Shown in pieces: positions 1-20,179 of a stretch of DNA of 21,829 nt. Location: positions 1-21,829 of the IMG/VR virus record IMGVR_UViG_3300002514_007037. One strand, given 5' to 3'. Source of the stretch: a virus. The number at the start of each line of letters is the position of its first letter. The first letter of the stretch is position 1. The position numbers were made by a program, and so were the translations under genes. The notes beneath the pieces are model-generated. The model ran no database searches. It had not been told where the DNA came from and was given only the letters and a program-made list of their open reading frames with translations.

Positions 1-1409
1 CCTACCGTTTGAAATCCCAACCATTTAGTAATGGCTTCGCCGGGATAGTCGCCGCCATCTTGATAAGAACCGCCGTAGCGTTCCCAATTACTAAGATTAA
101 ACTTGCCGTTTTCATCAAACGCGCTATCAAAGGGGTTATCAGAGTTTTTAGAGTCATCTATTTTTTTAAGTTCTTCGGCTTGTTTTTCTTTGGTGAAGGC
201 GCTTATGTTGTTGTAAAGATTGGGGAATCTTTTTCCGTACACTTGTGTGCTGGGAACTGCAAGAGACATTTTCAAAGTGGGGTTGACGAATTTCTTTAAG
301 CGAACGCGAGAGAGAGGCTCAATTTCACCAGTCCCTCGTTCGGTATCCAAGAAGAGTTCTTCGTCGTTCTCTTCTATAAAGTCTAAAAGCTCTTGATGAG
401 ACGCTTCGCTCGGCAGCGCAGAATCAACCAGAATGCTATCCAAGTCGCTAGTCTTAACGACATAAGCAATCGGGCCGTGACCGTGAGCTTCTGCAACAGC
501 GCACTTGTAGTAGCTGCCCCCACCTCCGCGTGAGCTTGGTGAATGGCATGTCTCAATCCTATCGAAGTCGGACATTCGCAATACATCGAGTGGGTGGCGC
601 GAGTAGACAATTGAGTATTCGCTGCTTGTTGTTGCGTCACCGGCAGCAGCTTCTGGATTTTCGCGGTAGAAGGCTGACTTTTTATTCCACCAATCGGCTA
701 GCTGTTGATAAGGGTTTAACGCCGAAGAAGGTATTGTTTGCGCACCTTGAAAGACATCGAAAAGCTTTTGTCTTTCTTTTTTTGATTTGTCTGTCGCTGC
801 CTCATATGCTGCGTGATATTCTTTTACCTTTTCTTCGTCATTATCGGCTGCTGGGTCGTCGCCCGTTGGAGATATGCCGAACTGATCTGGATACATCTCG
901 TCGTGGACTTTCCACGCTTCGTGAGCATTATCATAGAGGCGCGACCCTTTTTGAAGAAGCTTTCCTATTTTTATTTGTTTCTTTTGTATCTTCTTTTTTC
1001 TTTTCTCGAAGCTTTCGTCGGTATCTGTTTCTAGCCTTTTTATTTGCCCGTCATCATCTACGAGATGTTCCATTTGCTCGGGTGTAAGAATAATTGTCGT
1101 TGGCTTGTCGCCTTCGCGCATAGCGGGAAGCGAAAAAGAATAGTAATTCGCCAAACCTGTTGAAAAGTCTGGCTCATAACCCGATAGTTTGAGTGTCCGC
1201 TTAAGAGCTTGAAGGTTTCTGTCTTTGGTTTTCATTGGCGTTATTAAACGCATCTTGTCGCCAAAGATGTTTCCGAACGAAAGGTCTTCTGGCTTTAGGT
1301 CGTGAAGAATCTCATCGATGTCTTCGAGTTCTTCGTCCGTTACTTCTTTGAGTTCTTCTTCGTTGAGGAATTTATTCCAGTTTTCGAATAATTTATTGTA
1401 ATTGTTCAT
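1..1409 (-). CDS. Large phage protein with Cys motif, 3' end cut by window
   Basis: This open frame starts at ATG 1407-1409 and runs without a stop to the window edge, giving 469 codons of an unfinished protein. An AAGG ribosome site lies about 8 nt upstream of the ATG. Residues 6-20 read KLFENWNKFLNEEEL, which resembles the N-terminal tags of the two large proteins at 2370-6202. Residues about 130-220 are very rich in Lys and Glu and look helical. Residues 268-318 hold a compact block: YSRHPLDV, then ETCHS with Cys288, a GGGG run, YYKC with Cys303, and GHGPIAYVV. From memory, related R-HP-x-DV ... C-H/M ... AYL/V blocks recur in hypothetical proteins of large phages, but I know no proven function. 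It is likely the last-translated gene of the unit at 1-6202. I am confident that it is a gene and do not know its role. Confidence 0.85.
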   Translation of the reverse strand, partial: MNNYNKLFENWNKFLNEEELKEVTDEELEDIDEILHDLKPEDLSFGNIFGDKMRLITPMKTKDRNLQALKRTLKLSGYEPDFSTGLANYYSFSLPAMREGDKPTTIILTPEQMEHLVDDDGQIKRLETDTDESFEKRKKKIQKKQIKIGKLLQKGSRLYDNAHEAWKVHDEMYPDQFGISPTGDDPAADNDEEKVKEYHAAYEAATDKSKKERQKLFDVFQGAQTIPSSALNPYQQLADWWNKKSAFYRENPEAAAGDATTSSEYSIVYSRHPLDVLRMSDFDRIETCHSPSSRGGGGSYYKCAVAEAHGHGPIAYVVKTSDLDSILVDSALPSEASHQELLDFIEENDEELFLDTERGTGEIEPLSRVRLKKFVNPTLKMSLAVPSTQVYGKRFPNLYNNISAFTKEKQAEELKKIDDSKNSDNPFDSAFDENGKFNLSNWERYGGSYQDGGDYPGEAITKWLGFQTV

Positions 1410-1453
1410 ATTCAGCCCTTATATAATTAGTTTGTGGTCGCCAAAAGCAACCT

Positions 1454-1681
1454 TCAAGATATCTTTTCCAAAAGAGAGGTTTTGATGGTTACTTTATGGC
1501 CGCTCGACCAGAAAACCAATGCATATTCATATATTTGATCGGGTTCATTCTTTGGCATCTCGCTGCGGCCGTATTGAACTGATAAGACTAAGCCAATCGT
1601 TTTATATCTAGAAAACATTCCTTTAATGAAATCGCCACGTCGTTGTACTACTAAGTCGCCGACCTCAATCTCATTAACCAT
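1454..1681 (-). CDS. Small VGDLV-type hypothetical protein
   Basis: A 75-residue protein starting at ATG 1679-1681 with an AGGGG ribosome site about 10 nt upstream. The sequence begins MVNEIEVGDLVVQRR and continues as alternating short beta segments (IGLVLSV, YALVFW, HKVTIKT). This pattern is typical of small SH3/KOW-like barrels that phages carry in many copies. The neighbouring 73-residue protein has the same VGDLV start and a similar size, so the two may be old tandem duplicates. It sits between that gene (6-nt gap) and the large truncated gene, and is probably co-transcribed with both. No catalytic motif is visible and the function is unknown. Confidence 0.7.
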   Translation of the reverse strand: MVNEIEVGDLVVQRRGDFIKGMFSRYKTIGLVLSVQYGRSEMPKNEPDQIYEYALVFWSSGHKVTIKTSLLEKIS

Positions 1682-1687
1682 CTAGAT

Positions 1688-1909
1688 CTATTTCCCCTTA
1701 GTTTCATTTAAAACTATTTCATATTTAATTATATCTTCAAAACTTTCTAAACACCACAGCGCATCCTGCCAGAGAACTTTGGCGAAATATAAATCCGTTC
1801 CTGTGACGACTCCAATCATATTCTCTTGAATATTGTCTGAAAAAAATCTTCGTGGTTGTCGGTATTTAACCAGATCTCCCACTTTATACTCATTTTTTAT
1901 CTCGTCCAC
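1688..1909 (-). CDS. Small VGDLV-type hypothetical protein, GTG start
   Basis: A 73-residue protein beginning at GTG 1907-1909, one base past the stop of the hydroxylase-family gene. No ATG is available in frame near the start, and no clear Shine-Dalgarno sequence is seen, so translation is probably coupled to the gene before it. Residues 8-15 read YKVGDLVK, matching the EVGDLVV segment of the next gene; the rest alternates hydrophobic beta-like stretches (MIGVVTG, FAKVLWQDALW). The likely fold is a small SH3-like barrel, which is inferred from pattern only. The function is unknown. The GTG start and weak ribosome site make the exact first residue uncertain. Confidence 0.65.
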   Translation of the reverse strand: MDEIKNEYKVGDLVKYRQPRRFFSDNIQENMIGVVTGTDLYFAKVLWQDALWCLESFEDIIKYEIVLNETKGK

Positions 1910-1910
1910 T

Positions 1911-2369
1911 TTATTCGTCGCTTGTTGTTCCTAAAATGCGATCCCAAAGTGGAGTAGTGACACCCCAATTGGCTTCTTGGTTTTTTCCCATATGATGTGT
2001 ATAATGCCATGGCACGTGCTTTTTTCCCCACTCAACGTCGCGATGAGCCTTTTGGTGTACATAAAAGTATCTAGCGGAAGATGCAATTAAAGTATAAAAA
2101 AACCAGGGTGATATAAAATAAAAGGGAAGGTGAAATATTAATAAAGCGTAGAGACTCAATATCTCGCGAGATACGACAGTCGGAAGGAATTTGTTGTAAT
2201 CACCGTCTTTATTATCGTTTTTACGGCACGTTTGGTGATGGACGCTCCAGTGGAAACTAAACCAACTATTTTTCTTTTTACCGAGTTTGTGAAGAACATA
2301 TTTGTGTAGCACCCATTCTAGCCACGTCGCATATAAGTAGCCAATGATAACGCCAATAATTATGGTCAT
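1911..2369 (-). CDS. Fatty acid hydroxylase superfamily membrane protein
   Basis: A 152-residue membrane protein with the histidine clusters of the fatty acid hydroxylase / sterol desaturase / carotene hydroxylase superfamily, whose members use a di-iron centre to hydroxylate or desaturate lipids and pigments. The motifs are HKYVLH at 22-27 (HX4H), HWSVHH at 40-45 (HX3HH), HQKAH at 105-109 and WHYTHH at 121-126 (HX2HH). The end NWGVTTPLWDRILGT at 134-148 is a family hallmark. Hydrophobic segments lie at about 1-20 and 68-100, so it should sit in the host inner membrane with the His boxes on the cytoplasmic side. The start is well fixed: a strong AGGAGG site precedes ATG 2369 and overlaps the 3' end of the upstream gene. 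The substrate cannot be told from sequence; carotenoid, lipid or sterol-like compounds are possible. It may be an auxiliary metabolic gene. Confidence 0.85.
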   Translation of the reverse strand: MTIIIGVIIGYLYATWLEWVLHKYVLHKLGKKKNSWFSFHWSVHHQTCRKNDNKDGDYNKFLPTVVSREILSLYALLIFHLPFYFISPWFFYTLIASSARYFYVHQKAHRDVEWGKKHVPWHYTHHMGKNQEANWGVTTPLWDRILGTTSDE

Positions 2370-4055
2370 TTAACTCCTCCTAATAGTTATTTTAATTCCT
2401 TTTTTACCCTCTTGCAAAGGTAGCTCCATTTGTTGTTTCTTTTCTTCGGGGTCTGGCCAGTATTCTTCTTCTTTGGCGGGACGACCAATTAGATTTTCAT
2501 CTTTAAGATATTTTAGGGCTAGTTCATCGAAATTGTCTGTAATCAGCGAATCCCATCTTGTCATCGTTCTTAGATAGTGTGCGTATTCTTCGGGTGAGCC
2601 ATAGCCGCTCTCAAAAGTAACAAGAAATTCATCCGGGTGGTCATATTCTGCTTCGATATCTTCCCAAAATACACGTGAGTCGCGCAATGCTAACTTCGCA
2701 GCCCTCTTCATTGCCTCTCTTTCATCATCTGTTATATCTTCTACATTTATTTTCCACTCTAAGCCCTCGGTATTTCCCTCAACGGCGGCGCCCAAATCAA
2801 GAAAGGCAGTCGCGTAAAAGGTTGGAGATGAAGCGCCGGTTTCATAAGGAAACTCCAAGCTTACATTAATATGTTGGCGCTCGTCATATTGAGCATTAAG
2901 ACTTTTGTATGCTTCTTCGCTTGGTCCCGCTGGATTCTCTTCTGCGTCTTGTTCGGCCCAATCTTTCATTTGTTTAAACAAGGCATATGCTTTTTCTCGA
3001 ATCTTCTCATTGGCGTTCAAAGCTTCGCCTGCAAATCCCACTCCGGTATCAGCCAGTGCGGAATCCCACATAATGTCTAATCTTTCTAATGCTGCGAGGT
3101 ATTCGGCCTCATCTTCATCTGTTGGGTCGTCGACGTGTTGGTCGCCCTCGTAAAACAAATAGGTCATTAATGCGCCATCGGCTTCTTTTTCGTGCAAGAG
3201 GTTAGAGACGAGCGCGTGTGTTATTTCGACAAGGCTTAAAGAGTTATCTTCTGCATCAAAGGTTTCATCATATGTGCTATTGTGGACCGGGTTATCGCTG
3301 TCGACAACCATTGCTAGTTTTTTATATTTGTTATCGTTTGATAAGTGGCCTAGCATAACAAAGTAGAACGCTTTACCATCAGCAGTGTATTGTTCGTAAT
3401 AATTTTGCGACTCAGTTGCAGAGATGCACCACTTTGTGCCCTTTCCGTAGTAGCAAGAAGCTTCTTCTGATTCTGGACGAATCATTATATAGTCGTCGTT
3501 GTTTACGATTACTCTCGATGTTGAAGAGGCTGCTTCTCTTTCTTGTTCTTTTTGCTTCTTGGCCTTATCTTTGTCTTGTTTCTTTCGGTCGGCATTTGAT
3601 ACGGCGCTGTTTAATTCCTCCCAAGTTGTATAGGATGCGAGGTCGCGACCTTTGGGGTCAATGTGAGGTAACAATTCGTGGAACTTGTTTATTTCTGTTG
3701 CTATCGTAGTAGCTAATCCCCAAGGCGACCAGAGTTTTTCGGTATCAAAGTTGGTTACTACTTCTCCATCAACGCTGTCCAGTGGCCATTGCTTTTCCCA
3801 GAAAGGTTCCAGACCATTGCGCTTGTGGATTGCGAATTGATTGTTTAATATTTTAGCTGCTGCTGCAAGATACTTTTGATTGCCGGATGGGTCGGCTTGG
3901 ATAAGGACGTCCAGTACGCTTTCGCCGTCAAGCCCTTCTCTTTTCTCTGCTAGCTCAGGATACTTCTTTTTAACGTCGTCGATGCGGCCTTCGATAAGAA
4001 GCTGTTCTTCTGTAAGAATTGAGTATTTACGGAAGTTCTCGAATAAATCTTGCAT
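2370..4055 (-). CDS. Large LFE-tagged phage protein with GTKWCIS domain (paralog of 4079-6202)
   Basis: I place the start at ATG 4055 (561 residues) because the frame from there matches the paralog's first residues (MQDLFENFRKY against MQKLFESFRKY) and because the 12 nt before this ATG match those before the paralog. A longer form from ATG 4082 (570 residues, ATGA overlap with the upstream stop) is possible. Domains: N-terminal tag 1-25 ending LLIEGR; a shared KKYPEL and ADPSGNQKYL block at 30-63; a Lys/Glu-rich linker at about 155-178; then a conserved domain at 183-235 containing NNDDYIMIRP, ASCYYGKGTKWCIS (Cys201, Trp209, Cys210) and AFYFVML. The C terminus reads KKGIKITIRRS. I recall GTKWC-type domains as frequent in large phages with no settled function. 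It is acidic after residue 300. Possibly an internal or structural virion protein. Confidence 0.85.
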   Translation of the reverse strand: MQDLFENFRKYSILTEEQLLIEGRIDDVKKKYPELAEKREGLDGESVLDVLIQADPSGNQKYLAAAAKILNNQFAIHKRNGLEPFWEKQWPLDSVDGEVVTNFDTEKLWSPWGLATTIATEINKFHELLPHIDPKGRDLASYTTWEELNSAVSNADRKKQDKDKAKKQKEQEREAASSTSRVIVNNDDYIMIRPESEEASCYYGKGTKWCISATESQNYYEQYTADGKAFYFVMLGHLSNDNKYKKLAMVVDSDNPVHNSTYDETFDAEDNSLSLVEITHALVSNLLHEKEADGALMTYLFYEGDQHVDDPTDEDEAEYLAALERLDIMWDSALADTGVGFAGEALNANEKIREKAYALFKQMKDWAEQDAEENPAGPSEEAYKSLNAQYDERQHINVSLEFPYETGASSPTFYATAFLDLGAAVEGNTEGLEWKINVEDITDDEREAMKRAAKLALRDSRVFWEDIEAEYDHPDEFLVTFESGYGSPEEYAHYLRTMTRWDSLITDNFDELALKYLKDENLIGRPAKEEEYWPDPEEKKQQMELPLQEGKKGIKITIRRS

Positions 4056-4058
4056 GCC

Positions 4059-4068
4059 ATAAGTAGTT
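4059..4068 (-). promoter_or_regulatory. Start-proximal AACTATTTAT-like element (variant)
   Basis: The minus strand reads AACTACTTAT, a one-base variant of an element found at exactly the same place, three bases before the ATG, at 6206-6215 and 10997-11006. The copy here precedes ATG 4055 rather than ATG 4082, which is one reason for choosing the shorter start of this gene. Whether it acts in transcription or translation is unknown. Confidence 0.4.
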
Positions 4069-4078
4069 TGTTTAATTA

Positions 4079-6202
4079 TCATTTCTTAATAGTTATCCTT
4101 ATTCCTCTTCTCTTTCTATTCTCCTCGAGATATCCAACGGGTGCATATCCGGAGGTTGAACCTAGTGGCATGAAGAAGTTGGACTCAGCATAATTCCTAA
4201 CCTCATCGGCAGCAGACTTCAAGCCCTTTACTAATACACTGCGAACAATGCTTTGGAACTCATCGAAGTTCGCGTCGAAATAATCGATGAACTCAACAAG
4301 TGCTTTCATTTGTTCTTCATCGTCTCCTCTCTGCAAGGCCATTCCCAATAAAAGCTCTACAGAGTTCTTAGCTATGTCCAGTGTTGCCCAATGTATTTTG
4401 AACTTTGAAGGGGTAACGAGTTGTCGTATCTCTGCTGCTGGAATGCCGGGAAGATTAAGCTGTCGTTTGGCTTGGTTTTGTGCTTCTAGAAAGTGTTTGC
4501 TCAGGGCGTCAAGCAACATATTGGTTCCAAAGGAAAAGTTTGTAGGGCCAATTTTCTGACTGAACAATTCCTGGAATTCGATATTCAAATACCTTAACAC
4601 TTTTGCTTGGTCAAAATCTCCAAGGCCCAGTTCATTCCCTGCTGCTTGTATTTCCCTTGTTACGGTTCGAACGATTTCTCCTATCTCTGGTAATTTAAGT
4701 TCCATCTTTATAGAATAGCTAACTGTTCCTCTGGAAGTGTCTGCTTTAAAGTGTTTGTATTCTTGTGTCTTCGCCGTGTCTCGCAGTTGTCCGTATGCTG
4801 TTTTCGAGATATCTAGCGCACCCTCTTCGATGAACATGTCAATTAAGTCTTGGCGCGCATCATCGTATTTTGCGTCGGCGTCTTCTAGGCCGGTAACAAA
4901 ACTACTAAACCTGTCTATGTCTGAGTCTCCATAGGAGCCATCCTCAGTCGAGATACTAACGTAAATTCGATTATCGTAGAACTCTATCTCATTTGGATAA
5001 ATATAATTGTCGTCTAAAATCGAGCCGATTTCGTTCGAAAGGTCGAGTTCATCAAGAGTTTTCTCGTTCCATCCCTCTAAGTCATCGAAATCAAAAGCGA
5101 TTGAAGCGTCCCATCCCCAAGTCCCAATATCATATTCTTCAAAAGTAACATCAATGTGTTGTAAGTTCGCGTTATCTAAGATGTCTTGGAAATCTTGGTC
5201 CGATGGACCTGCGGGGTTTTCTCTCGTATCGTCTGCGGCGGTCGCTTCCATTTCATACCACACTCCATTAACAGTTTCATCATACCACTCTTCTACGCTT
5301 TCTGGTTCATAACCATCTGCTTTTAATCTATCGACCAGTATTTCATATGCAGTAGGGACCTCTTCTTTTAATTTCTCCATATCATGATAGCGAGTGTATT
5401 CTTGCCATGCATCACTGACTTTGCTTCCTAAAAGATTGGTTGCAATTATTTCTATAACACCCAGCTCGCTCATATGTTGATCGGTAGCATCATATGCTTC
5501 TTCGAATTCGCCGAGGTTGAGAAAGACGAGAGCTAACTTGCCGTAGGTTTTCCAGAAATCATCTCCTTCAAAATTATCTTTATTCTTCGACAAGAGAAAG
5601 TAAAACGATTTACCTTCGTTGGTGTAGCGATTGAAGTAGTTCTCTGACTCCCTTGCAGAAATACACCATTTTGTGCCTCTTCCCCAATAGCAAGATGCTT
5701 CTGCGCTTGTTGGACGCACCATCATAAAGTCATCATTGTTAATGAGAATGGTTGATTCTTGCATTGCTTCTTGCTTTTGGCGCTTTTTCTCTTCTTTGAC
5801 TCGTTCTGTATCGAGTTTAATACGTTCTAGGCTTTGAACCAATGCTATTAAATTATCGAGGCTAGTAATATTATTAATGTCTCTGAATTTTTTAGCTCCT
5901 TCACGGATGTACGGTTGGAGCTTGTGGAATTTTTGAAGATACTCGGCTATATTATCTGCTTCTACTTGAGCGGTAGCCGGATCTATTTCAGGTGTGCGGC
6001 CTAACTCTCTGTCGAGCATTTTTGCTGCCCACATAAGATACTTTTGGTTGCCTGATGGGTCTGCGTCGATGAGAATATCGATATAGCCATCTGCTGCTAG
6101 TTGGGGGTATTTCTTCTTCGCGTCGTCTTTGCGACCTTCAACGAGAAGTTGTTCTTCGGTCAGTATTGAGTATTTGCGGAAGGACTCGAAAAGCTTTTGC
6201 AT
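4079..6202 (-). CDS. Large LFE-tagged phage protein with GTKWCIS domain
   Basis: A 707-residue protein starting at ATG 6200-6202; an in-frame stop lies four codons upstream, so this is the earliest ATG. It has the same plan as its downstream neighbour: tag MQKLFESFRKY...LLVEGR at 1-24, KKYPQL and ADPSGNQKYL at 30-56, a charged coiled-coil-like stretch at about 125-148, and the conserved domain at 152-205 with NNDDFMMVRP, ASCYWGRGTKWCIS (Cys171, Trp179, Cys180) and SFYFLLS. The middle (about 250-470) is acidic and rich in Asp, Tyr and Gly; a longer C-terminal part at 480-690 has no match I recognise. It ends RRGIRITIKK, close to the neighbour's KKGIKITIRRS. No good Shine-Dalgarno site is seen; instead the start is bracketed by a 16-bp inverted repeat and preceded by AACTATTTAT. 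The function is unknown; a packaged internal protein is my inference. Confidence 0.88.
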   Translation of the reverse strand: MQKLFESFRKYSILTEEQLLVEGRKDDAKKKYPQLAADGYIDILIDADPSGNQKYLMWAAKMLDRELGRTPEIDPATAQVEADNIAEYLQKFHKLQPYIREGAKKFRDINNITSLDNLIALVQSLERIKLDTERVKEEKKRQKQEAMQESTILINNDDFMMVRPTSAEASCYWGRGTKWCISARESENYFNRYTNEGKSFYFLLSKNKDNFEGDDFWKTYGKLALVFLNLGEFEEAYDATDQHMSELGVIEIIATNLLGSKVSDAWQEYTRYHDMEKLKEEVPTAYEILVDRLKADGYEPESVEEWYDETVNGVWYEMEATAADDTRENPAGPSDQDFQDILDNANLQHIDVTFEEYDIGTWGWDASIAFDFDDLEGWNEKTLDELDLSNEIGSILDDNYIYPNEIEFYDNRIYVSISTEDGSYGDSDIDRFSSFVTGLEDADAKYDDARQDLIDMFIEEGALDISKTAYGQLRDTAKTQEYKHFKADTSRGTVSYSIKMELKLPEIGEIVRTVTREIQAAGNELGLGDFDQAKVLRYLNIEFQELFSQKIGPTNFSFGTNMLLDALSKHFLEAQNQAKRQLNLPGIPAAEIRQLVTPSKFKIHWATLDIAKNSVELLLGMALQRGDDEEQMKALVEFIDYFDANFDEFQSIVRSVLVKGLKSAADEVRNYAESNFFMPLGSTSGYAPVGYLEENRKRRGIRITIKK

Positions 6203-6264: not shown

Positions 6265-6705
6265 TTATTTAATAGAAATCATAAGGGGCTTGACTTCTTC
6301 ACGAGTCGGAACTGTGATTCGAAGAAGGCCATTATCGTACTCAGCATTCACTGATGTTAAATCTAGATTATTATCATAGTTTACATAAGTTTTGCTAAAG
6401 CTGCGACGGGCGATTCGCCTGTTGCTGTCCACTGCCTCTTCGTCCACTTTTGTTTCAGCAGAGACGGTGATACTTTTCTTGTCTGGTCGTACTTCTAAAT
6501 TAAGCTCTTCCTTAGAAAAACCTGCTAACGCGAATTCCATAATGGTGTTTCCGCTATCATCTTTCCAAATATCTGCAACTGGGTATCCTTGTGTGGATTG
6601 CTGCATGAGTTGTGGAAAGTCTCTCAGGACATTATTGAAGATGTCATCAAAAACAGGTCGCCCAAGAAGGCTCGGTCGTCTGTGTAAAGTAAGTGTGTTG
6701 CTCAT
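6265..6705 (-). CDS. Small heat shock protein, Hsp20 / alpha-crystallin family
   Basis: A 146-residue small heat shock protein, an ATP-independent holdase that keeps unfolding proteins soluble until GroEL or DnaK systems take over. The alpha-crystallin domain runs from about 41 to 133: YPVADIWKDD, a strand FALAGFSKEELNLEV, and the family signature GLLRITVP at 126-133. The C terminus MISIK supplies the I-x-I motif (143-145) used for oligomer assembly. The length is normal for the family. I start at ATG 6703-6705, which has an AAGGAG site 7-8 nt upstream; a 13-residue longer frame lacks such a site. It has its own sigma70-like promoter at 6772-6799 and a structured leader at 6733-6766. Small heat shock proteins are known in several marine T4-like phages, where a role in virion assembly has been suggested. 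Confidence 0.95.
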   Translation of the reverse strand: MSNTLTLHRRPSLLGRPVFDDIFNNVLRDFPQLMQQSTQGYPVADIWKDDSGNTIMEFALAGFSKEELNLEVRPDKKSITVSAETKVDEEAVDSNRRIARRSFSKTYVNYDNNLDLTSVNAEYDNGLLRITVPTREEVKPLMISIK

Positions 6706-6732
6706 TTTATTTTCTCCTTTAAAAAGCAAGTA

Positions 6733-6766
6733 AGAACTCAACACCCCAAAGGCGATATCAAGTTCT
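6733..6766 (-). promoter_or_regulatory. Leader hairpin of the hsp20 mRNA
   Basis: In the minus-strand leader, AGAACT at its 5' end pairs perfectly with AGTTCT, and the inner TGATATC pairs with GGTGTTG through three Watson-Crick and four G-U pairs, giving a stem of about 13 bp around an 8-nt loop. The predicted transcription start (about 6765) would put the hairpin at the extreme 5' end of the mRNA. The ribosome site AAGGAG lies downstream and outside the stem. It could protect the mRNA or respond to temperature; this is drawn by eye without energy calculation. Confidence 0.45.
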
Positions 6767-8019: not shown

Positions 8020-9597
8020 TTACTTTTCAACAATTGCATAGTTAGAAGAGATTAACACACCGGCTACTGAAACGGCGTTTTGTAGGGCACAACGAGTGAC
8101 GCGCGCGGGATCAATTATACCAGCATCCGTCACATTGATTATCTCATTCACCCTAAAGTCATACCCAAAGCCTTCAGTCTGATTCTCAACCAAATTTATC
8201 ACAAGGTCTGGTGACTCTCCTGCGTTTAAAGTCATTTGTTTTAGAGGTTCCTTGATAGCCTGTTCAACAATCTTTACTCCGAACTTTTGCCATTCATTCT
8301 GAACATCGTCTTGTACATTTTCTACTAGACGTGGTGAGCATTGAGTTAGGAAGGAGCCCCCGCCAGGGAGCACCCCTTCAAGCTGCGCTGAATGCACAGC
8401 CTCTAGAGCATCCTGAATACGATGGCGCTTTTCTATCATCTCAATCTCAGTTGCTGCGCCTACATGTATTACGGACACGCCGGAGGCCAATCGCGTAATG
8501 CGCTCTTGTATTTTTTCGCACTCTTGAAGACCGTCTGTGTCTTTCATCACGGCTTTAAGTTTTTCTATCTGCTTGTCGACTTCATCATGATCTCCCGCTC
8601 CGCCAACGATTGTGGTAAGATTTTTTCCGGCCTCTAGTTTCTTTGCTTCGCCAAAATGAGTCAGCTTCACGTCTTTTAATTTAACTCCCGTCTCTCGAGA
8701 GACCAACGTTGCGCCGACCGAGAGAGCTAAGTCTTTTAATATGCCTCTACGCTCTTCTCCATAGCGAGGGGCCTTGATGCCAACTACGCGCATTGTTCCG
8801 CGAACGGCATTCATAATAAGCGCAGCCAATGCTTGTCCTTCTATGTTTTCAGCTACAATAACAAATGGTCGAGCCTCTCGTGCAGCTACTTCCAAGGCCG
8901 GTAGCATGTCTTCAACCATCTCAATCTTCTCATCTGTAACCATTATCAACGGATTATCATATTTTACGAGGCCTCGCTGCTCATCGTTAATGAATGCAGT
9001 GGCTAAGTAGCCGGAATCAAAGCGAAACCCCTCTACTAATTCTAGACTAGTCTCGAGAGAGCGAGCCTCTTCAATTGTAACAGAGCCATCTTTGCCTGCG
9101 AGATCGACTGCTTTGGCTACAAGCTTGCCAATAACGTTATCGTTGTTGGCAGAAATAGTAGCTACGTTTTGAATATCTTCAACGGATTTGATAGGAACTG
9201 ATGCTTTTTCTACCTCTTTAACCAAGTAATCAACGGCGAGTTCCATGCCCTTCTTGAGTTCGATGGGAGGGGCACCGCTGGTTAAATACTTCTGTGCTTC
9301 TTTATACATTGCATATGCGAGAACCGTTGTAGTCGTTGTACCATCTCCGGCCTCGACATTTGTTTTTTCAGCAGCTTGCTTAATAATTTGAGCGGCGGCG
9401 TTTTGAAATGGATCTTCCAAATCAATAAACTTTGCCACTGTCACACCATCTTTGGTGGTGATAGGATTGCGGCCTTTTTGGTGAAGGATAACAGTGCGTC
9501 CCTTCGGGCCTAGTGTTGACGCCACGTTTTCTGCGACTGTTCGAACGCCCTTTTCCAGCGCGGAGCGGAGCGCTAAAGAATCATTAAATTGTTTCAT
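8020..9597 (-). CDS. groL: Chaperonin GroEL (60-kDa, group I), no GGM tail
   Basis: A 525-residue group I chaperonin, the ATP-driven double-ring cage that folds proteins in the cytoplasm. Key parts are present: TLGPKGR at 28-34, TTKDGVT with Asp50, GDGTTTTT at 84-91 with Asp85, a full apical domain, and DALEAVHSAQLEGVLPGGG with the catalytic Asp of the C-terminal equatorial part. The start is ATG 9597 with AGAGG 5 nt upstream; a GTG two codons earlier is less likely. The protein ends VAGVLISSNYAIVEK and lacks the acidic and GGM-repeat tail of bacterial GroEL, so it is about 20 residues short. No GroES is in the window. Phage chaperonins, for example that of phage EL, are known, and some work without a co-chaperonin. 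It has its own strong promoter. Confidence 0.97.
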   Translation of the reverse strand: MKQFNDSLALRSALEKGVRTVAENVASTLGPKGRTVILHQKGRNPITTKDGVTVAKFIDLEDPFQNAAAQIIKQAAEKTNVEAGDGTTTTTVLAYAMYKEAQKYLTSGAPPIELKKGMELAVDYLVKEVEKASVPIKSVEDIQNVATISANNDNVIGKLVAKAVDLAGKDGSVTIEEARSLETSLELVEGFRFDSGYLATAFINDEQRGLVKYDNPLIMVTDEKIEMVEDMLPALEVAAREARPFVIVAENIEGQALAALIMNAVRGTMRVVGIKAPRYGEERRGILKDLALSVGATLVSRETGVKLKDVKLTHFGEAKKLEAGKNLTTIVGGAGDHDEVDKQIEKLKAVMKDTDGLQECEKIQERITRLASGVSVIHVGAATEIEMIEKRHRIQDALEAVHSAQLEGVLPGGGSFLTQCSPRLVENVQDDVQNEWQKFGVKIVEQAIKEPLKQMTLNAGESPDLVINLVENQTEGFGYDFRVNEIINVTDAGIIDPARVTRCALQNAVSVAGVLISSNYAIVEK

Positions 9598-9612
9598 ATA
9601 CACCTCTGTGTT

Positions 9613-11008: not shown

Positions 11009-11680
11009 TTAAATGATGATATCCGCTATTCCCATCTCCACTGCCTCTTCTGCACTGAGATATATGTCGACTCTTTTATTCAACATTGTATTGATTTGTC
11101 TCTTTGTCATACTTGTCTCGGCAATTAAAGCGGCAATGTGTTGCTCTTGTAGCCACTTGGTTTCTTTCATTTCATTTTCTAACGAGTGGAGCGCGCCATA
11201 GTGGCCTCCGCGTACTGCATGCATCATAATGCGCGTATTCTTTCCTACTTTGCGGGTGCCTTTTGTTCCAGCAGCGAGTAGCAGAACACCGGCCGACATT
11301 ACTTTTCCAATCCCGATGGTATTAATATCACACTCCTCTCTTATCATACGCATTAAATCGTATATGGCAAACATCCCCAGTGCGTCACCCCCCCACGTTG
11401 AAATGCAAAAGTCAATTGGGTTTTTAATTATTTCCACCTCGCCATCAGGATCATCAGGGTCTACGAGGCGTTCTTCACAGCAGGTGTCTTTAAGGTAAAG
11501 TAAGCCTGTGCAGATGTTTTCCACCTTTTCTTCATCCAAGTCGCCAAACATATTAAGCATTCTAGAAGGCGGCGGCGAGAGAGCTGATGGGTCAAACAAG
11601 TTAATCTGAAATGGGGGCTCTGGTGTTGTTATTTCCTCTATCTCTTGTGGCTCTTCTTGATCCTTCTTTTTTTTAGTCAT
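11009..11680 (-). CDS. clpP: ClpP-like serine protease (S14)
   Basis: A 223-residue ClpP-family protease. The triad is complete and properly spaced: Ser129 in GKVMSAGVLLLAAG, His154 in TRIMMHAVRGG, Asp205 in KRVDIYLSAEEAVEMG. STWGGDALGMFAIYDLM at 94-110 is the family's oxyanion and handle region. An N-terminal extension of about 45 residues, basic then Glu/Pro-rich, precedes the ClpP core and differs from cellular ClpP. ATG 11680, with AAGGAAG upstream, is the probable start; it overlaps the preceding gene by 8 nt. No Clp ATPase is in the window. It could dock on the host unfoldase to redirect protein degradation, or act as a head-maturation protease, since ClpP-like prohead proteases exist in other phages; its place after an acidic scaffold-like gene leaves that possibility open. 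Confidence 0.93.
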   Translation of the reverse strand: MTKKKKDQEEPQEIEEITTPEPPFQINLFDPSALSPPPSRMLNMFGDLDEEKVENICTGLLYLKDTCCEERLVDPDDPDGEVEIIKNPIDFCISTWGGDALGMFAIYDLMRMIREECDINTIGIGKVMSAGVLLLAAGTKGTRKVGKNTRIMMHAVRGGHYGALHSLENEMKETKWLQEQHIAALIAETSMTKRQINTMLNKRVDIYLSAEEAVEMGIADIII

Positions 11681-12077
11681 TGCTTTCTTCCTTCTTGGCT
11701 TCAATGATAGTTTTTCTATAATATTTGTTTAAGTGATTCATTAGGAGCTTCCAGGTTTGCGCATCTAGGCTCGCGCGGTACAAAGGAGGGACGGCATTAT
11801 TAAGCTTGTTAAGGGTTTCCTTTTGCCACTTTTCCATAAAGTTATCATCCTCGTTTTTAAAGGCTGTGATTCTTTCACTATCTATACTGGAATCTTTAAT
11901 CAAAAACTTATATTTTATAGCGCGTATGCTCACCAAATCCTCATAGGCTCGGCCGATGAGTTCAAACGCAATGATGCGAATGTCTTCAACAAATTGTGCT
12001 TTTTTGGAAAAGAAATCTAAATTGGATATAACAGAATAAGCTAATCCGCCAGCGGCGAACCAAAAGAATTCCCACAT
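11673..12077 (-). CDS. Hypothetical protein with N-terminal membrane segment
   Basis: A 134-residue protein starting at ATG 12077 with GAGG 6 nt upstream. Residues 1-19 (MWEFFWFAAGGLAYSVISN) are hydrophobic and aromatic and would anchor it in the membrane; the rest is helical and charged, with KKAQFVEDIRIIAFELIG and a Lys-rich end. It overlaps clpP by 8 nt, so the two are translated together, which hints at a shared task, perhaps tethering or substrate delivery; that is inference only. I do not recognise the family well enough to name it. Confidence 0.7.
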   Translation of the reverse strand: MWEFFWFAAGGLAYSVISNLDFFSKKAQFVEDIRIIAFELIGRAYEDLVSIRAIKYKFLIKDSSIDSERITAFKNEDDNFMEKWQKETLNKLNNAVPPLYRASLDAQTWKLLMNHLNKYYRKTIIEAKKEESND

Positions 12078-12102: not shown

Positions 12103-12693
12103 TTAAGACTGTTTCGAGCGTAAGAGTCGTTTAGCTACGCGAGTAGCTACTTCGTTAACGAGAGATTCATCGTCGACCACGGTAACTTCGGCAAGCTCTA
12201 TCTCGTCCTCTACTTCCATTTCGACTTCTTCCCCTTCGGGACCAGCCTCCATATCCATCTCGACGTCTAGTTCTTCTTCGCCGCCCATGTCTACTGCTTC
12301 GACCTCTTCAGGTTCTAACTCATCACCTGCGCTGCGTAATTTTGTTACTACACCTTCTGCGGCGTCAAATGCAGCAACAAGAGAATCAACCTCGTCATCT
12401 GTAAGAGTAACTTCGCCTTCTTCGGTCTCGGGGCTTGGGGGTAATGCTGCTTCGGCTTCCTCGGCGCCCAAGTCAAGTTCAAGCTCTTCTTCGGCACCCT
12501 CTTCTTCACCAGCTTCTTTGCCTTGCTCGTACTCATATTTATCGACATCTGCTCTCTCTTCGCGAGATTCGTCTTCTTCCTGTACAACCTCTTGGTTATC
12601 TAAAAAGGAATCTGTAAGTGGGGCAATCTCTGCCAGTTTCATAAAGCGTCGAACGGTGCCTTCTTCTAAAAGGGTTTTTTTGTTTTTAGCCAT
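12103..12693 (-). CDS. Highly acidic, scaffold-like phage protein
   Basis: A 196-residue protein in which about a third of residues are Glu or Asp. The ends differ from the middle: residues 5-32 contain TLLEEGTVRRFMKLAEIAPL, a short basic amphipathic block, and residues 178-196 contain LVNEVATRVAKRLLRSKQS, another basic helix. The middle (35-170) is low-complexity acidic sequence with few aromatic residues. I recall LLEEGTVRRFMKLA-like starts and VARRLL-like ends from marine phage proteins. A strong AAGGAG site precedes ATG 12693, with a small hairpin (TAAAAC TTT GTTTTA) just before it. The composition resembles scaffolding, prohead-core or DNA-mimic proteins; I cannot choose between them. 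It lies two genes ahead of clpP. Confidence 0.8.
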   Translation of the reverse strand: MAKNKKTLLEEGTVRRFMKLAEIAPLTDSFLDNQEVVQEEDESREERADVDKYEYEQGKEAGEEEGAEEELELDLGAEEAEAALPPSPETEEGEVTLTDDEVDSLVAAFDAAEGVVTKLRSAGDELEPEEVEAVDMGGEEELDVEMDMEAGPEGEEVEMEVEDEIELAEVTVVDDESLVNEVATRVAKRLLRSKQS

Positions 12694-13001: not shown

Positions 13002-13336
13002 ATATCACCTCTTTCATTTTCAATTAAATCAAATATATTTTCAATTTCGTCTTGGTTTAAACCAAAACGATCAATAATATCCTTTTCTTTTTTACGAAGC
13101 TCACGAGACTTCTTTAATCTAAATTTTCTAGCTAACATACTCTTTTCTTTAACCTTTTCTATAAAAGGTGTTAAAAGAGGGTCTTCGGAAAGATAAGCTT
13201 TAATATACTCATTAAAGAAGAAGAACTTGGTTACATCATCAAACCTTAACTTAATAAGCAAATTAGCGTCTAGCTGTCCCAACGACGGGAACTGAATCAA
13301 CTTGGCGTCCTCGGGGAGTGTCTTTTTCTTTTTCAT
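12998..13336 (-). CDS. Hypothetical basic protein
   Basis: A 112-residue protein joined by ATGA overlaps to both neighbours, with no clear ribosome site, so it depends on coupling to the gene before it. It has a FFFFNEYIKAYL aromatic segment at about 38-49, a very basic stretch at about 62-85 (EKVKEKSMLARKFRLKKSRE then LRKKEKD), and an acidic helical end (LNQDEIENIFDLIENE). The basic helix could bind nucleic acid. Its place between the GMP reductase-like gene and the sigma-like gene suggests, weakly, a role in transcription. I do not recognise the family. Confidence 0.68.
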   Translation of the reverse strand: MKKKKTLPEDAKLIQFPSLGQLDANLLIKLRFDDVTKFFFFNEYIKAYLSEDPLLTPFIEKVKEKSMLARKFRLKKSRELRKKEKDIIDRFGLNQDEIENIFDLIENERGDI

Positions 13337-14364
13337 TTTATAGCTAAAATATGAGTGCCGCTTTCAAATAAGCCTGCATTTGTTTGAATAGTAAATAGGG
13401 ATTTGGACTGCAACTCACTTATAGATCTACATCCAGAGTATGAAAAGCCGGAAGCAATTCCCTTTCGGAGCCCTTCTAAAATTTCTTTGACTGGGCCTTT
13501 ATAGTTTACTGTGGTGCTTATTCCTTCGTCAGAAGAGGTGGTGCCCTTCCAATCTAGCTGGGCGTCTTTTGATGCCATCCCGCGATAAATCTTATAACGT
13601 CTGTCGCCGCTTGATTGTACTTCGCCAGGAGACTCATCAGTACCGGCGAGCAACGAACCTAGCATTACAAAATCTGCACCGGCTGCTAACGCCTTGACTG
13701 CATCGCCGCTGTTTCTAATACCACCATCTGCAATAATATTTACTTTTCTATTAGAACGCGAACAATCCAAAATTGTTTGAAGTCCGGGCATTCCATGCCC
13801 AGTTTGAATTCTGGTGGAACATATACTGCCTCCACCGATATTACATCGAACACTGTCTGCGCCCCAATCAGCCAGATCGTTAAACCCGTCTAGAGTGGCG
13901 ATATTGCCAGCAATAATATGAATGGTGTCTCCATACTTATTTTTAAGCGCAGTGAGGGTTTTTTTCATTAAGGCATGGTGTCCGTGCGCCACGTCAATGC
14001 ATATTATTTGCGCTCCATTGGCGACCACTGCGTCACTGCGCTCTAGAAAATCGCCGCTCATCCCAACTGCTGCTGCCACCGGGGCTTGACCAGTGGTTAA
14101 CGAGGTGTGAAGAACAAGTCCCGCTTGTTCTTCGATAGAATTATACCGATGAATAATGCCTAGGCCACCATTGTTATGCATTGCTATGGCCATGGCTTCT
14201 TCCGTCACAGTGTCCATCGGAGAAGAAATGATAGGAAGAGGAAAGTAGATATGATCGCTTAAAAAACTGCCAACATCAACCTCTGAGCGGCTTTGTATGT
14301 TGGAGTATTGCGGCACTAATAAAACATCATCATATGTAACTGCTTCTTTTAAGATTCTTCTCAT
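13333..14364 (-). CDS. IMP dehydrogenase / GMP reductase family enzyme without CBS domains
   Basis: A 343-residue TIM-barrel enzyme of the IMPDH/GMPR family, acting in purine nucleotide interconversion. Seen: [12 protein letters not shown] at 10-21, SRSEVDV, the phosphate loop and catalytic Cys182 in [30 protein letters not shown] at 212-230, and [10 protein letters not shown] at 260-269. The CBS pair of IMPDH is absent, giving GMPR-like length. The Arg-Tyr flap pair of IMPDH is not seen; instead Thr184 follows the Cys at +2 and Glu280 lies in SSDEGIST, like the Thr-Glu pair of GMP reductase, and the flap is short. I therefore favour GMP reductase (GMP plus NADPH to IMP) but cannot exclude an IMPDH. 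SD AAGGA and ATGA overlap at the start. Confidence 0.88.
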
Positions 14365-16133: not shown

Positions 16134-16232
16134 CTACCCTTTGGTTTTTCCAAATAAATTTATTACTAACAAGATAACTGCCCCAATGAGTACTATTTTT
16201 GCTGCAAGATAGGGGTCGATAATAGGCTCCAT
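16134..16232 (-). CDS. 32-aa single-span membrane protein, candidate holin-like peptide
   Basis: A 32-codon frame from ATG 16230-16232 to TAG 16134-16136. Its ATG shares one base with the dUTPase stop (TAATG), the coupling style used throughout the window. It starts MEPIIDPYLAAK, has a hydrophobic run at about 8-27 (IVLIGAVILLVINLFG), and ends GKTKG, so the charge pattern predicts N-out, C-in. The next gene is the endolysin, 41 nt downstream, which itself has no export signal. This suggests a small holin, antiholin or other lysis peptide; no family match is claimed. The 41-nt stretch after it shows only the ribosome site of the endolysin. Confidence 0.65.
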   Translation of the reverse strand: MEPIIDPYLAAKIVLIGAVILLVINLFGKTKG

Positions 16233-16702
16233 TATCTGTCCCCTGTGCTTCCAAAGCCGCCCTCGCCTCGTTTAGTTGTCTTGTTAAAACTTTTTTTAGG
16301 AACTTCTTCTATTTCACAGCAACTAATTGGAACAAGCACTGCTTGAGCAACTTTATCACCCGGTTGTATATACTGCGTTTTCCACCCAATGTTGTGAAGA
16401 TTGACAAATATCTCACCAGTATATCCACAATCAACAACGCAGGCGCCCACCACTAATTGCTTCTTTGATGCAACTCCAGATTTGTTTTTAATTTCTAGCA
16501 TATGATTTGGTGGGACTTCTATTTTTAATCCCGTTGGGAGGACCACGGATGCTCTTATTTCAACGGGAAGACCGTTTGAGCTAATCATTTTTTCTTTAGT
16601 CTTTGTGTCTGGACAAAAATACAAATCCATCCCTGCGTCCGTAGGATAGGCGCGTACCGGAAGCTTTGCGTCTTTTCTAACTTTAGCTACTTTTAGTTTC
16701 AT
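16232..16702 (-). CDS. dut: dUTP diphosphatase (dUTPase)
   Basis: A 156-residue trimeric-type dUTPase, which converts dUTP to dUMP and diphosphate, keeping uracil out of phage DNA and feeding thymidylate synthesis. All five motifs are present: I TDAGMDLY at 21-28, II KNKSGVASK at 72-80, III VVDCGYTGEIFVNLHN at 89-104 with the catalytic Asp91 and the base-stacking Tyr94 region, IV PGDKVAQAVLVP at 114-125, and V RGEGGFGSTG at 145-154. The length is normal. The start is ATG 16702 with AAGGA 5 nt upstream and a sigma70-like promoter about 20 nt before it. It is followed, with one base of overlap, by the 32-aa membrane peptide. Confidence 0.96.
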   Translation of the reverse strand: MKLKVAKVRKDAKLPVRAYPTDAGMDLYFCPDTKTKEKMISSNGLPVEIRASVVLPTGLKIEVPPNHMLEIKNKSGVASKKQLVVGACVVDCGYTGEIFVNLHNIGWKTQYIQPGDKVAQAVLVPISCCEIEEVPKKSFNKTTKRGEGGFGSTGDR

Positions 16703-16756: not shown

Positions 16757-19700
16757 TTATCCCAACATTTTCCACTGGCCCAAAGAACGAGTAGAAAAGC
16801 CCCACTGCTCTTCGTACTTTAGTCGTGCCATATACGGTCTATTAATATAAATCTTATCTTTACGAGGATTTACTCCCCAGCATCTAATGTCAATCATGGC
16901 TGAGTTGGTGTCTAGAGTTTTAACAACGTAATAAGTTCTTCCTTTTGCTGTTTTTCTTTTAATGACCTCGCGAGGAATAAACCAAGCGATTCCCAAATCT
17001 TCATCATAGTTTGATATCGTAGGAATACAATTGTATTCAATTCTTTGAAGAATGTCTTCTTTGACTACCAAGTCAAAAGGATATATTCCACTAATATTAA
17101 CTTTGTTTTCAATGTATTCATCTCTTGTGAAATCCTCGACATCTTTAAAAGCTTCTATGTTCTCATTCAACTTCTTTCTGGTCTTGGGTCTGTTGTCGGC
17201 GATGGATAGCCAAAAATGCTTTAAATTGTTAAACCTTTCGTCCACCAATCCATTTAAAGCGCCGACTCGAGCTAGGACATCTAGAGCCTTTTTATTCAGT
17301 TTTGAGTAGATAATTTCCTTATTATAGAGAAGCTCTTCAACAGTGTTGAAGGGTCGATGAGCGATAATCTGTTCAATCGCTTTGTCGCCCAATCCCTTAA
17401 GAGAGGTTAAAGGTTGAATCAAGCTTTTGCCATCATCGGAAATTTCCCAAACAATCCCTGATTCATTAATATTGACGGGCTCAATTTGAAAGCCTTCTTT
17501 CTTTGCAATGTTAATGGCGCGCTCTTTTCTGCTCTCGGGTTCTTTGTCAAGAAAACTCGCCATCCACTCGGAAGGATAGTAATTTAGCAGCCAAGCACAC
17601 TGGAAAGAAATAACAGAATAGGAAACAGCATGAGACTTGTTAAAACCATAACCGCTGAAATACTCAAACCTTTGCCAAATCTTTTCTGCCTCTTTCTCCG
17701 ATATTCCCTTAAGTCCACAACCTTCGATGAATTTTTGGTGGATGGCTTTTTTCTTTTCATTTCCTTTCCCGGTGCCCTTTTTAGTTAACAGCTTTCGAAG
17801 AAGATTCGCTTCGTCTAAGCTAATGTCTTTTCCTAACTTATGTGCCAATAAAGCAATCTGCTCTTGAAAAATCAAAAAGCCATATGTTTCTTTTGTAACT
17901 TCCTTAATAATATCGTGACCATAGCGCACTTTGCTTGGGTTCAACTTTGTCTCAACATAAAGTTCATGAACGTTAGCAGACAGTGGGCCGGGACGGTAAA
18001 TACTCGTTATCGCTGCAATGTCAACTATGCTTTTAGGCTTTGCTCGTTTGCAAAAAGCTTGTGCGCCTTTTTCAGTAAACTGAAAGATGCCTGCCCACTT
18101 ACCTTTATGAAATATATTAGCATACACTTCTTGATCTTTAAGGTTGATTTTGTCTGGATGTAAATTTTTGTTGTAAAATTCTTTTATGTCTTCAAATGTG
18201 GGTTCTGCAACATTATGATATCTTTGAAGAATATGATATATTGCTCCTTCCACCATCTTAAGAGTGGAAAGGCCAAGGATATCAAACTTGATAAACCCCA
18301 TTGGTTCTAGATGGCGAACGTTCTGCCCTTCGGACCAAGGCGTTTGAGTTATGCCTCCGTTGTTAATCAGCGGCATATATTTATCTAAGTCTTCTCCAAT
18401 CACAACGCCCCCGGCATGCCTCGAAACCGATCTAACTTGACCATAAAGAGTATTAACGTGGTCTGCTACGTTGGGATACTTGTTTAAGAAACTCTTAAGA
18501 GAGTCTGAGAATTCCATCACTTCTTCGAAGGTCGGAGTATAGACTCCTGCTTTAATTCCGTGTTTTTGTTTGGCGCGGGGCATCGCTTCAAAAAGCATTT
18601 TAGAGGTAACATTGTTCACTTCTAAAAAGGGAATGTCGTAAAGCTTTGAGATATCTTTAATTAAAGAACGTAGTTGCAAAGTGTTGAAGTTAGATATCGG
18701 AACAACTTTATTGTTGCCCCACTCTTGTGCTAGCTGTTCTTTAAGTTCCATCGGAGAACTACAATCATAATCGATGTCCGGATAATCTGTTGCGTCCTTT
18801 CTTAAGAATCGCGAAAACAAAAGGTTATATTTAATTGGATCGATCTGTGTGATTCCCAACACATATGCAACTAACGAGCCTGCGGCGCTGCCTCTACCCG
18901 GTCCTGTTATCTGCACTTCATTTGCTTTGTCGGCTATGGCTTTCATTGTTAAAAAGTATTTACTAAACCCACGTTCAGAAATGACGAGAAGCTCTTCTTT
19001 CAATCTTGAAACATACTCTGGCTTCTTTTGGAAATTAAGACCCCTCAAACCATCGATACAAGCAGCGCTGAGGGCGCTATCTGCGGTGTGACCTGCAGGA
19101 ACTACGAACTCAGGCAGGCGAACAGTGTTGTCAGGTAAAAAGCTTTCAATGCGATTATGGGCGATATGATAGGTTTCGGTGATACTGTCCATCACCACGT
19201 CATCGTCATACTCAACACCACACTCTTTAGAATAGTTCTTATAGGATTCCCATATTTGGTCGCCATTTTTAGGATATAGTTCATAACCAATTTCATCTAG
19301 CCCTGCCGGTAGTTCAGAGGACATCCAAGTGGGCATCCCACCTTTCCCAAGCCATCCAAGACGTTTATATAATTCGCGGTCCTTCCAGGCGTTTGGGCCT
19401 GGATAATGACTATCGGCTGTAGATATAAGCTTGAAACCGCATTCCTTAGAAAGACGAATGATATAGGTGTTTAGCTCATGCTGTTCCGCAATGTTGTTCC
19501 ATTGCACTTCTCCATACCACCTGTCGCCGAAAATGGCCACCATACGTTCGGTGGTTTCGCGCATTGCTTTCATTACAGCGTCAGGGCCGTCATCGCGATT
19601 TTCCCAATAGTTACCAGCATATACACCACCCAAACAAGCCGAAGCTGCAATCACTCCTTCGTTATACTTCTCAAGCAAATCATAGTCGACACGTGGGAAA

Positions 19701-20179
19701 CGATAAAAACAATCTGGAGAATAAGAGTCTGAGACTAGTTTAAAGATATTATTTAAGCCAGTTTGATTCTGCGCCAACAAGATTAGATGGCGTCTACGAT
19801 TAAGGATGTTTTTAACAGACTGTTTAGATTCCCCTTCGTCTTCAACGGTGGTAGCGGAGCGGGAGGTATCAATCTTCTTTTTGGCTTTCTTATCTTCTTT
19901 CGCGCTTTCGTATTCTTTCTTCCACTCTTTAAGACTAGGAAGGAAGTAGGCTTCTACACCGAAGATGGGCTTAAACTCTTTACCTTCCGCTTGCATCTTC
20001 TTAGCGTGTAAAACTTGATATGCTAAACCATTCTGATTGCCATGGTCTGTTAGTGCCAGGGCGTCACTGCCGTTATCATAAGCAAAGTTCATATGCTCTG
20101 CTGGATAACCAAGCCCGTCAAAGGGGCTGCCCACGCCACTATGGGCGTGGAGCCCTACAAAGGGTATTTTACTCTTCAT
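16757..20179 (-). CDS. dnaE: DNA polymerase III alpha subunit (DnaE-type, C-family)
   Basis: A 1140-residue bacterial-type replicative polymerase. PHP domain at 1-270 with all nine expected metal ligands: His11, His13, Asp21, His46, Glu76, His131, Cys182, Asp256, His258. A Lys-rich charged insert lies at about 84-125. The catalytic core has GPGRGSAAGSLVAY at 426-439, Asp468 and Asp470 in YPDIDYD, and Asp633 in FIKFDILGL; SRHAGGVVIG, SIYRPGPL, FLIFQEQIALLAHKLG and GFNKSHAVSYSVI follow. The helix-hairpin-helix region (LTSLKGLGDKAIEQI) comes next and a C-terminal OB-like part begins near VNISGIYPF. The usual internal clamp-binding box is not evident, but the protein ends LGQWKMLG, which might be one. 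The start is ATG 20179 with a GAGGAAG site; it overlaps the preceding gene by 11 nt. A DnaE in a phage suggests a largely self-run replisome. Confidence 0.97.
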   Translation of the reverse strand: MKSKIPFVGLHAHSGVGSPFDGLGYPAEHMNFAYDNGSDALALTDHGNQNGLAYQVLHAKKMQAEGKEFKPIFGVEAYFLPSLKEWKKEYESAKEDKKAKKKIDTSRSATTVEDEGESKQSVKNILNRRRHLILLAQNQTGLNNIFKLVSDSYSPDCFYRFPRVDYDLLEKYNEGVIAASACLGGVYAGNYWENRDDGPDAVMKAMRETTERMVAIFGDRWYGEVQWNNIAEQHELNTYIIRLSKECGFKLISTADSHYPGPNAWKDRELYKRLGWLGKGGMPTWMSSELPAGLDEIGYELYPKNGDQIWESYKNYSKECGVEYDDDVVMDSITETYHIAHNRIESFLPDNTVRLPEFVVPAGHTADSALSAACIDGLRGLNFQKKPEYVSRLKEELLVISERGFSKYFLTMKAIADKANEVQITGPGRGSAAGSLVAYVLGITQIDPIKYNLLFSRFLRKDATDYPDIDYDCSSPMELKEQLAQEWGNNKVVPISNFNTLQLRSLIKDISKLYDIPFLEVNNVTSKMLFEAMPRAKQKHGIKAGVYTPTFEEVMEFSDSLKSFLNKYPNVADHVNTLYGQVRSVSRHAGGVVIGEDLDKYMPLINNGGITQTPWSEGQNVRHLEPMGFIKFDILGLSTLKMVEGAIYHILQRYHNVAEPTFEDIKEFYNKNLHPDKINLKDQEVYANIFHKGKWAGIFQFTEKGAQAFCKRAKPKSIVDIAAITSIYRPGPLSANVHELYVETKLNPSKVRYGHDIIKEVTKETYGFLIFQEQIALLAHKLGKDISLDEANLLRKLLTKKGTGKGNEKKKAIHQKFIEGCGLKGISEKEAEKIWQRFEYFSGYGFNKSHAVSYSVISFQCAWLLNYYPSEWMASFLDKEPESRKERAINIAKKEGFQIEPVNINESGIVWEISDDGKSLIQPLTSLKGLGDKAIEQIIAHRPFNTVEELLYNKEIIYSKLNKKALDVLARVGALNGLVDERFNNLKHFWLSIADNRPKTRKKLNENIEAFKDVEDFTRDEYIENKVNISGIYPFDLVVKEDILQRIEYNCIPTISNYDEDLGIAWFIPREVIKRKTAKGRTYYVVKTLDTNSAMIDIRCWGVNPRKDKIYINRPYMARLKYEEQWGFSTRSLGQWKMLG

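Follow-up and report, generated by a model that had tools for sequence, protein, structure and literature searches.

A modular N-terminal tag on unrelated proteins of marine T4-like phages points to a probable route for loading many proteins into the head

Why do three large neighbouring proteins of a virus begin with nearly the same short segment? The proteins, here called P1, P2 and P3, are encoded in IMG/VR record IMGVR_UViG_3300002514_007037, a virus record fragment of 21,829 bases analyzed at full length (the window), whose main genes all lie on the minus strand. T4 and a few of its relatives are the textbook cases of head sorting by a short removable tag, and the T4 protease gp21 cuts such capsid-targeting sequences after (L/I)-x-E. 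A reading of the window from its letters alone had quoted the three N-termini, which are present as given on the minus strand, and had likened them to the T4 tags. Comparative evidence strongly supports the core of that proposal and changes three of its details. By analogy with T4, we consider it highly probable that P1, P2 and P3 are head cargo with T4-like capsid-targeting tags, that these are cut by a gp21-family protease, that the proteins enter the host with the DNA, and that a marine T4-like phage is the source of the window. The genes and their tags are as follows (↓ marks a known or predicted cut).

3-1409, minus strand: P1, tagged protein, 469 aa within the window and cut by the window edge; starts MNNYNKLFENWNKFLNEEEL
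1359..1409, minus strand: N-terminal tag of P1, MNNYNKLFENWNKFLNE; predicted gp21-type cut after E17 (L-N-E↓E)
2370-4082, minus strand: P2, tagged protein with a DPSGNQKYL region and a GxGTKWC domain; the open reading frame (ORF) starts MQDLFENFRKYSILTEEQLLIEGR
3990..4055, minus strand: N-terminal tag of P2, MQDLFENFRKYSILTEEQLLIE; two candidate cuts, one behind E16 (L-T-E↓E), the other behind E22 (L-I-E↓G), counted from the Met at 4055
4079-6202, minus strand: P3, tagged protein of 707 aa, a paralog of P2; starts MQKLFESFRKYSILTEEQLLVEGR
6137..6202, minus strand: N-terminal tag of P3, MQKLFESFRKYSILTEEQLLVE; the two candidate cuts follow E16 (L-T-E↓E) and E22 (L-V-E↓G)

P2 measures 570 aa from its first ATG (4082) and 561 aa from its second (4055). 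Its orthologs start at the second Met (MRDLFESF.., MHKLFESF..), so that the tag probably stands at the true start in all three proteins. The simplest account of the likeness would be paralogy, with no sorting tag involved. P2 and P3 are indeed paralogs, with 73% identity across the first 67 residues and 36% across the middle, and their sharing of a tag therefore means little by itself. P1, however, has no detectable similarity to P2 or P3 outside the tag, and the same tag stands on dozens of unrelated payload clusters. Paralogy is thus a very improbable source of the shared N-terminus; as a whole explanation it is refuted for the full set by the profile, the scan and the payload clustering described below.

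To follow the tag beyond these three proteins, related contigs were obtained by a search with the window's DNA polymerase (DnaE). A profile seeded with the tags of P1, P2 and P3 and their orthologs only was run on the remaining predicted proteins of the window and of eight related contigs. The top eight of 140,922 positions are all N-terminal and lie in proteins unrelated to P1-P3; at 14 bits or more, seven positions are N-terminal and none internal. Examples of N-termini found in this way are MQKLFENWRRFLTE, MKLLLERWRKYLNE and MKLIFENWRRHLKE. The claim of N-terminal enrichment draws on this P1-P3 profile only, the seeds of a later five-contig profile including some recovered proteins. Glu14 was never scored by the profiles, and the counts per contig come from mechanical ORF calls. 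These results confirm that the LFE-type N-terminus of P1, P2 and P3 is a modular tag and more than chance. The consensus that we propose is M-(K/Q)-x-L-[FL]-[ET]-x-W-R-x-[FY]-[LI]-x-E, which would form a short amphipathic helix.

The commonest form, tag A, was scanned as M-K-x-[LF]-[LF]-x-E-W-R-K-F with everything after it, including residues 12-15, left free. The pattern gives 43 matches in viral contigs, all of them opening an ORF (40 distinct N-termini), and a single match in 257 Gb of cellular genomes, where it is out of frame and opens only 15 codons within another gene. Of the 40 N-termini, 38 have Glu at residue 14 and 39 have L, V, I or M at residue 12; residue 13 is mostly K or N, and from residue 15 on conservation is nil. 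A second segment common in the same genomes, tag B (MKITKSxLKxLIKEE), also closes with I-x-E at residue 14, and a scan that left its residues 13-16 free finds Glu14 in 71/79. Across five large contigs (147-191 kb), [LIVM]xE with its Glu at residues 13-16 is present in 91% of proteins with tag A and 93% of those with tag B, as against 10% of untagged proteins; at residues 30-33 of the tagged proteins the share is 6-7%.

Where would such tags be cut? For P1 and most tagged proteins the predicted site is the Glu that closes the tag (FLNE↓E in P1, E14 in the commonest form). The sequence-only reading regarded LNE↓E in P1 as a partial fit to the T4 rule; the predicted cut does fall there, at the tag-closing Glu, and the imperfect part is the residue that follows (P1'), a Glu. 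Orthologs of P1 keep the site as [FY]L[NTK]E (MTDWMNRWDQYLTE↓N and MKNYRRFLKE↓V, with YLTE↓N, FLTE↓N and FLKE↓V in distant orthologs). An AlphaFold model of a 900-aa ortholog places residues 2-14 in one helix, and residues 1-45, ahead of the folded body, have pLDDT below 50.

P2 and P3 offer two candidate sites each. The sequence-only reading chose LLVE↓G and LLIE↓G; conservation of L20, E22 and R24 in this family, behind upstream tags that differ, favours that choice, and ILTE↓E (E16) becomes a candidate beside it. We lean towards LL(V/I)E↓G as the used or final cut. It is also possible, though we hold it to be the less probable case, that LLVE↓GR is the uncut first helix of the DPSGNQKYL domain and that any processing happens at ILTE↓E only, an arrangement compatible with the head-cargo explanation. 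R24 is conserved as much as E22, which suggests a constraint of the fold, and the AlphaFold model of P3 moves from a confidence of about 53 at residues 1-20 to 80 at residues 21-30, so that its high confidence begins at about residue 21. Yet only the middle position of this site is free to change (V, I, S, L, F, T), the flanking L/I and E being fixed; G, S or N comes next, and homologs with short tags keep this site only (MKITLENIRKVLSE↓NR, MNIILESIRKVLLE↓GR).

The reading had added a fourth protein, the acidic 196-aa product of 12103-12693, for its string LEE↓G. The string is real, but the protein bears no tag and conservation among its orthologs runs straight across the supposed site (EGTxRxFMKLA), and we have removed it from the tagged set. 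Its start, MAKNKKTLLEEGTVRRFMKLA, belongs to a form conserved in relatives (LLxEGTxRxFMKLA), and it is possibly a head core protein.

The payloads behind the tags are diverse. The 65 first compared form 41 sequence clusters, and the 75 payloads of the five large contigs form 59. Pfam matches above cut-off include a C39 peptidase (8.5e-16), an AAT Ntn-hydrolase (7e-18), ART-PolyVal (PF18760, 1.3e-7) and a 2H phosphodiesterase, the last on tag A (5e-7) as well as on tag B (1.4e-6). Homologous payloads carry interchangeable tags: one phage has its 2H phosphoesterase payload behind tag A, another has it behind tag B. In the clearest pair, G015_122771 (MQDILHEWRIFLAE↓SSLSRFYSHM) and a protein of Microcystis phage Mel-JY01 (MQFKQYILGE↓SSLSRIFSYL), homology starts at the predicted cut. 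Alt of T4 is an ADP-ribosyltransferase carried in the head, and surveys argue that ADP-ribosyltransferases and 2H enzymes are often head-packaged (PMC9503650; PMC7824862).

As the sequence-only reading observed, the window holds neither a protease nor a capsid gene, and both are therefore inferred from relatives. Contig G001 (155.7 kb) encodes a T4-type TerL, a gp20 portal, gp23 and an S77 prohead protease (PF03420; E 1.9e-30, 106 bits against a cut-off of 27). Of 27 contigs, 9 have an S77 match above cut-off, among them all those of 147.3 kb or more. The five large contigs each encode TerL, portal, a gp21-family protease, a gp22-like protein, a capsid protein and a DnaE of one lineage. Their tagged genes number 11, 19, 16, 17 and 12 and are clustered, with 4-13 adjacent pairs observed against 0.6-1.5 expected; in G001 one run of them (80,782-82,796) immediately precedes TerL (83,757). 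The further tagged proteins and the gp21-like protease to be expected on the earlier proposal thus both occur in relatives, at 11-19 tagged genes per contig and with an S77 E-value of about 1e-30. With so many additional genes under tag A or tag B in the same phages, one genome would load some 11-19 cargo proteins.

Together these observations suggest the following course. While the prohead is being assembled, the tag would attach to the scaffold core and so draw the protein in, like the propeptide of a T4 internal protein. A gp21-family prohead protease would then cut after the tag-closing Glu (FLNE↓E in P1; ILTE↓E and/or LL(V/I)E↓GR in P2 and P3), and the freed mature protein would remain inside the head and later pass into the host along with the DNA. 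It is from T4 that we infer targeting, cleavage, ejection and early roles in anti-defence or takeover.

Several points weigh against this scheme. No virion proteomics for this lineage was found in the literature searched, and the protease and capsid gene are both absent from the 21.8-kb window. The tag has only its M-K start and F-(L/I)-x-E end in common with T4 MKTYQEF. The exact site is missing in 3/32 tag A and 3/43 tag B proteins, one P1 ortholog (L275) has FLSD in place of FLxE, and P1' is often Glu where the T4 rule, as the earlier reading gave it, expects Ala, Gly or Ser. Finally, conservation of tag B extends to residues 15-16, and its exact cut is therefore uncertain. This last point would also suit a tag that is an uncut docking helix to some other partner (tail, internal scaffold, membrane or infection compartment), the tagged proteins then being perhaps fixed structural parts and not injected cargo; a first helix modelled as continuous over residues 2-31 of P3 would fit the same idea. 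Tag A conservation, on the other hand, ends at the Glu, L/I-x-E is the motif cut by gp21 of T4 and the same contigs encode an S77 protease, the clearest payload pair is homologous from the predicted cut on, and the payloads are soluble-enzyme-like. On this balance we regard an uncut docking helix as unlikely and retain the explanation by removable head-targeting tags.

The T4 record gives MKTYQEFIAE↓A for the starts of IPII and IPIII and FLTE↓A for gp23. In T4, N-terminal propeptides of 10-19 residues direct unrelated proteins to the core, and IPIII needs no more than its first 10 residues to be packaged, positions 4 and 7 being important for targeting, positions 8 and 10 for cleavage (PMC9026906). 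T-even internal proteins are described as diverse defence proteins that have only the targeting sequence in common (PMC3012670). The window's proteins and their relatives resemble IPI, IPII and IPIII, and the Alt propeptide, in carrying a short N-terminal propeptide-type segment on otherwise unrelated proteins, in an (L/I)-x-E end preceded by Phe (FIAE↓A and FLTE↓A in T4, FLNE and FLKE here), and in sharing a genome with an S77 protease and T4-type head genes, seen here in the relatives' contigs. They differ in that the tag has 14 residues against 10 in T4 and reads LxEWRKFLKE or KITKSxLKxLIKEE, in that a contig holds 11-19 tagged genes against a few, many with enzyme payloads, and in that the present system is known from sequence only. 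We accordingly file the tags as probable functional equivalents of T4 capsid-targeting sequences, a variant differing in the middle and in length. The tag strings themselves were not found in the literature searched, which comprised open-licence papers only.

Three other systems invite comparison. Polyvalent effector proteins of phages include similar enzymes (ART-PolyVal, peptidases, 2H phosphoesterases) whose injection alongside the DNA has been proposed (Iyer and others 2017, PMC5512222), but those are large multidomain chains, whereas here separate proteins each have their own tag. Substrates of phiKZ gp175 and SPN3US gp245 are likewise head proteins cut after Glu, with redundant propeptide sites and ejected members, although the proteases are of another branch and no comparable short tag is common to unrelated proteins. 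Agrobacterium phage Atu_ph07 has ten consecutive genes, gp53-gp62, starting M(K/R)WxxLxE (L324:39487-50592); this tag, in contrast, has 8 residues and the members look like paralogs. These genes lie in coding sequences 31-76, of which 29 products were detected in virions by mass spectrometry, the main text of that paper not naming which (PMC6102473). No homology was found between the tagged payloads and the gp53-gp62 array. Most members of the array have a YRG(M/I) motif, the cluster is rich in virion proteins, and gp53 also has a zeta-toxin-like kinase domain.

A broader claim, which we consider likely but hold with somewhat less assurance than the assignment of P1-P3, is that a large, little-studied marine T4-like lineage loads one to two dozen enzymes per genome by means of two or more interchangeable tags, a modular effector set delivered with the DNA. 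The set would comprise peptidases, ADP-ribosyltransferases, 2H phosphoesterases, acyltransferase-like hydrolases and GxGTKWC-domain proteins, and the 14-residue tag would make such effectors readable from sequence. If this is true, the range of proteins loaded into the head is far wider in environmental T4-like phages than in T4, and a tag at the start codon closing with L/I-x-E at residue 14 flags likely injected effectors among proteins of unknown function. It would likewise provide a candidate list for early anti-defence and host takeover, together with new short peptides for directing proteins into phage heads.

Orthologs of P1 are 820-914 aa long and share the region RHPxDVLRMSDFDxIxSCHSP...YYKCAVAEAHGHG, and no known domain was found in P1. 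P2 and P3 match PHROG 17056 / 28193, of unknown function, over their GxGTKWC region only (E 1.7e-8 to 4.7e-12). Membership in the PcfJ-like family (PF14284) was rejected, P3 scoring 17.9 bits against a curated cut-off of 25 and P2 giving no match. Fold searches with the P3 and P1 models find nothing significant in the PDB, leaving the bodies of these proteins with no solved relative there; in a viral library they find one close homolog and some weak links, including one to an Atu_ph07 protein. No named isolate turned up in searches with P1 or with the Ntn-hydrolase payload.

Paride and its relatives in Wroclawvirus encode a distant P3 homolog (MKLFEVF...; L004:1556-3118) whose gene comes right behind that of the large terminase. 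In MIJ3, one of the Pseudomonas phages with a P3 homolog, only four proteins were identified from gel bands, the P3 homolog not among them (PMC6892783). Contig G008 (318 kb; L076-L091), a distant jumbo phage, has eight P3 matches across seven proteins. It also has several short N-termini that follow the pattern MRNLIKKIIKEE and may be a third class of tag.

Elsewhere in the window, a fatty acid hydroxylase (PF04116, E 3.6e-12) lies between P1 and P2 at 1911-2369, a position kept in relatives such as L069 and L072. An Hsp20-like protein (6265-6744), a GroEL-like chaperonin (8020-9603) and a ClpP-like protease (11009-11704), named by eye from sequence, have similar genes that recur among the related contigs. 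An IMP dehydrogenase-like gene (13333-14364) and a dUTPase-like gene (16232-16702) follow. The bacterial-type DNA polymerase III alpha subunit (DnaE; 1140 aa, 16757-20179) connects a family of marine contigs with T4-type heads.

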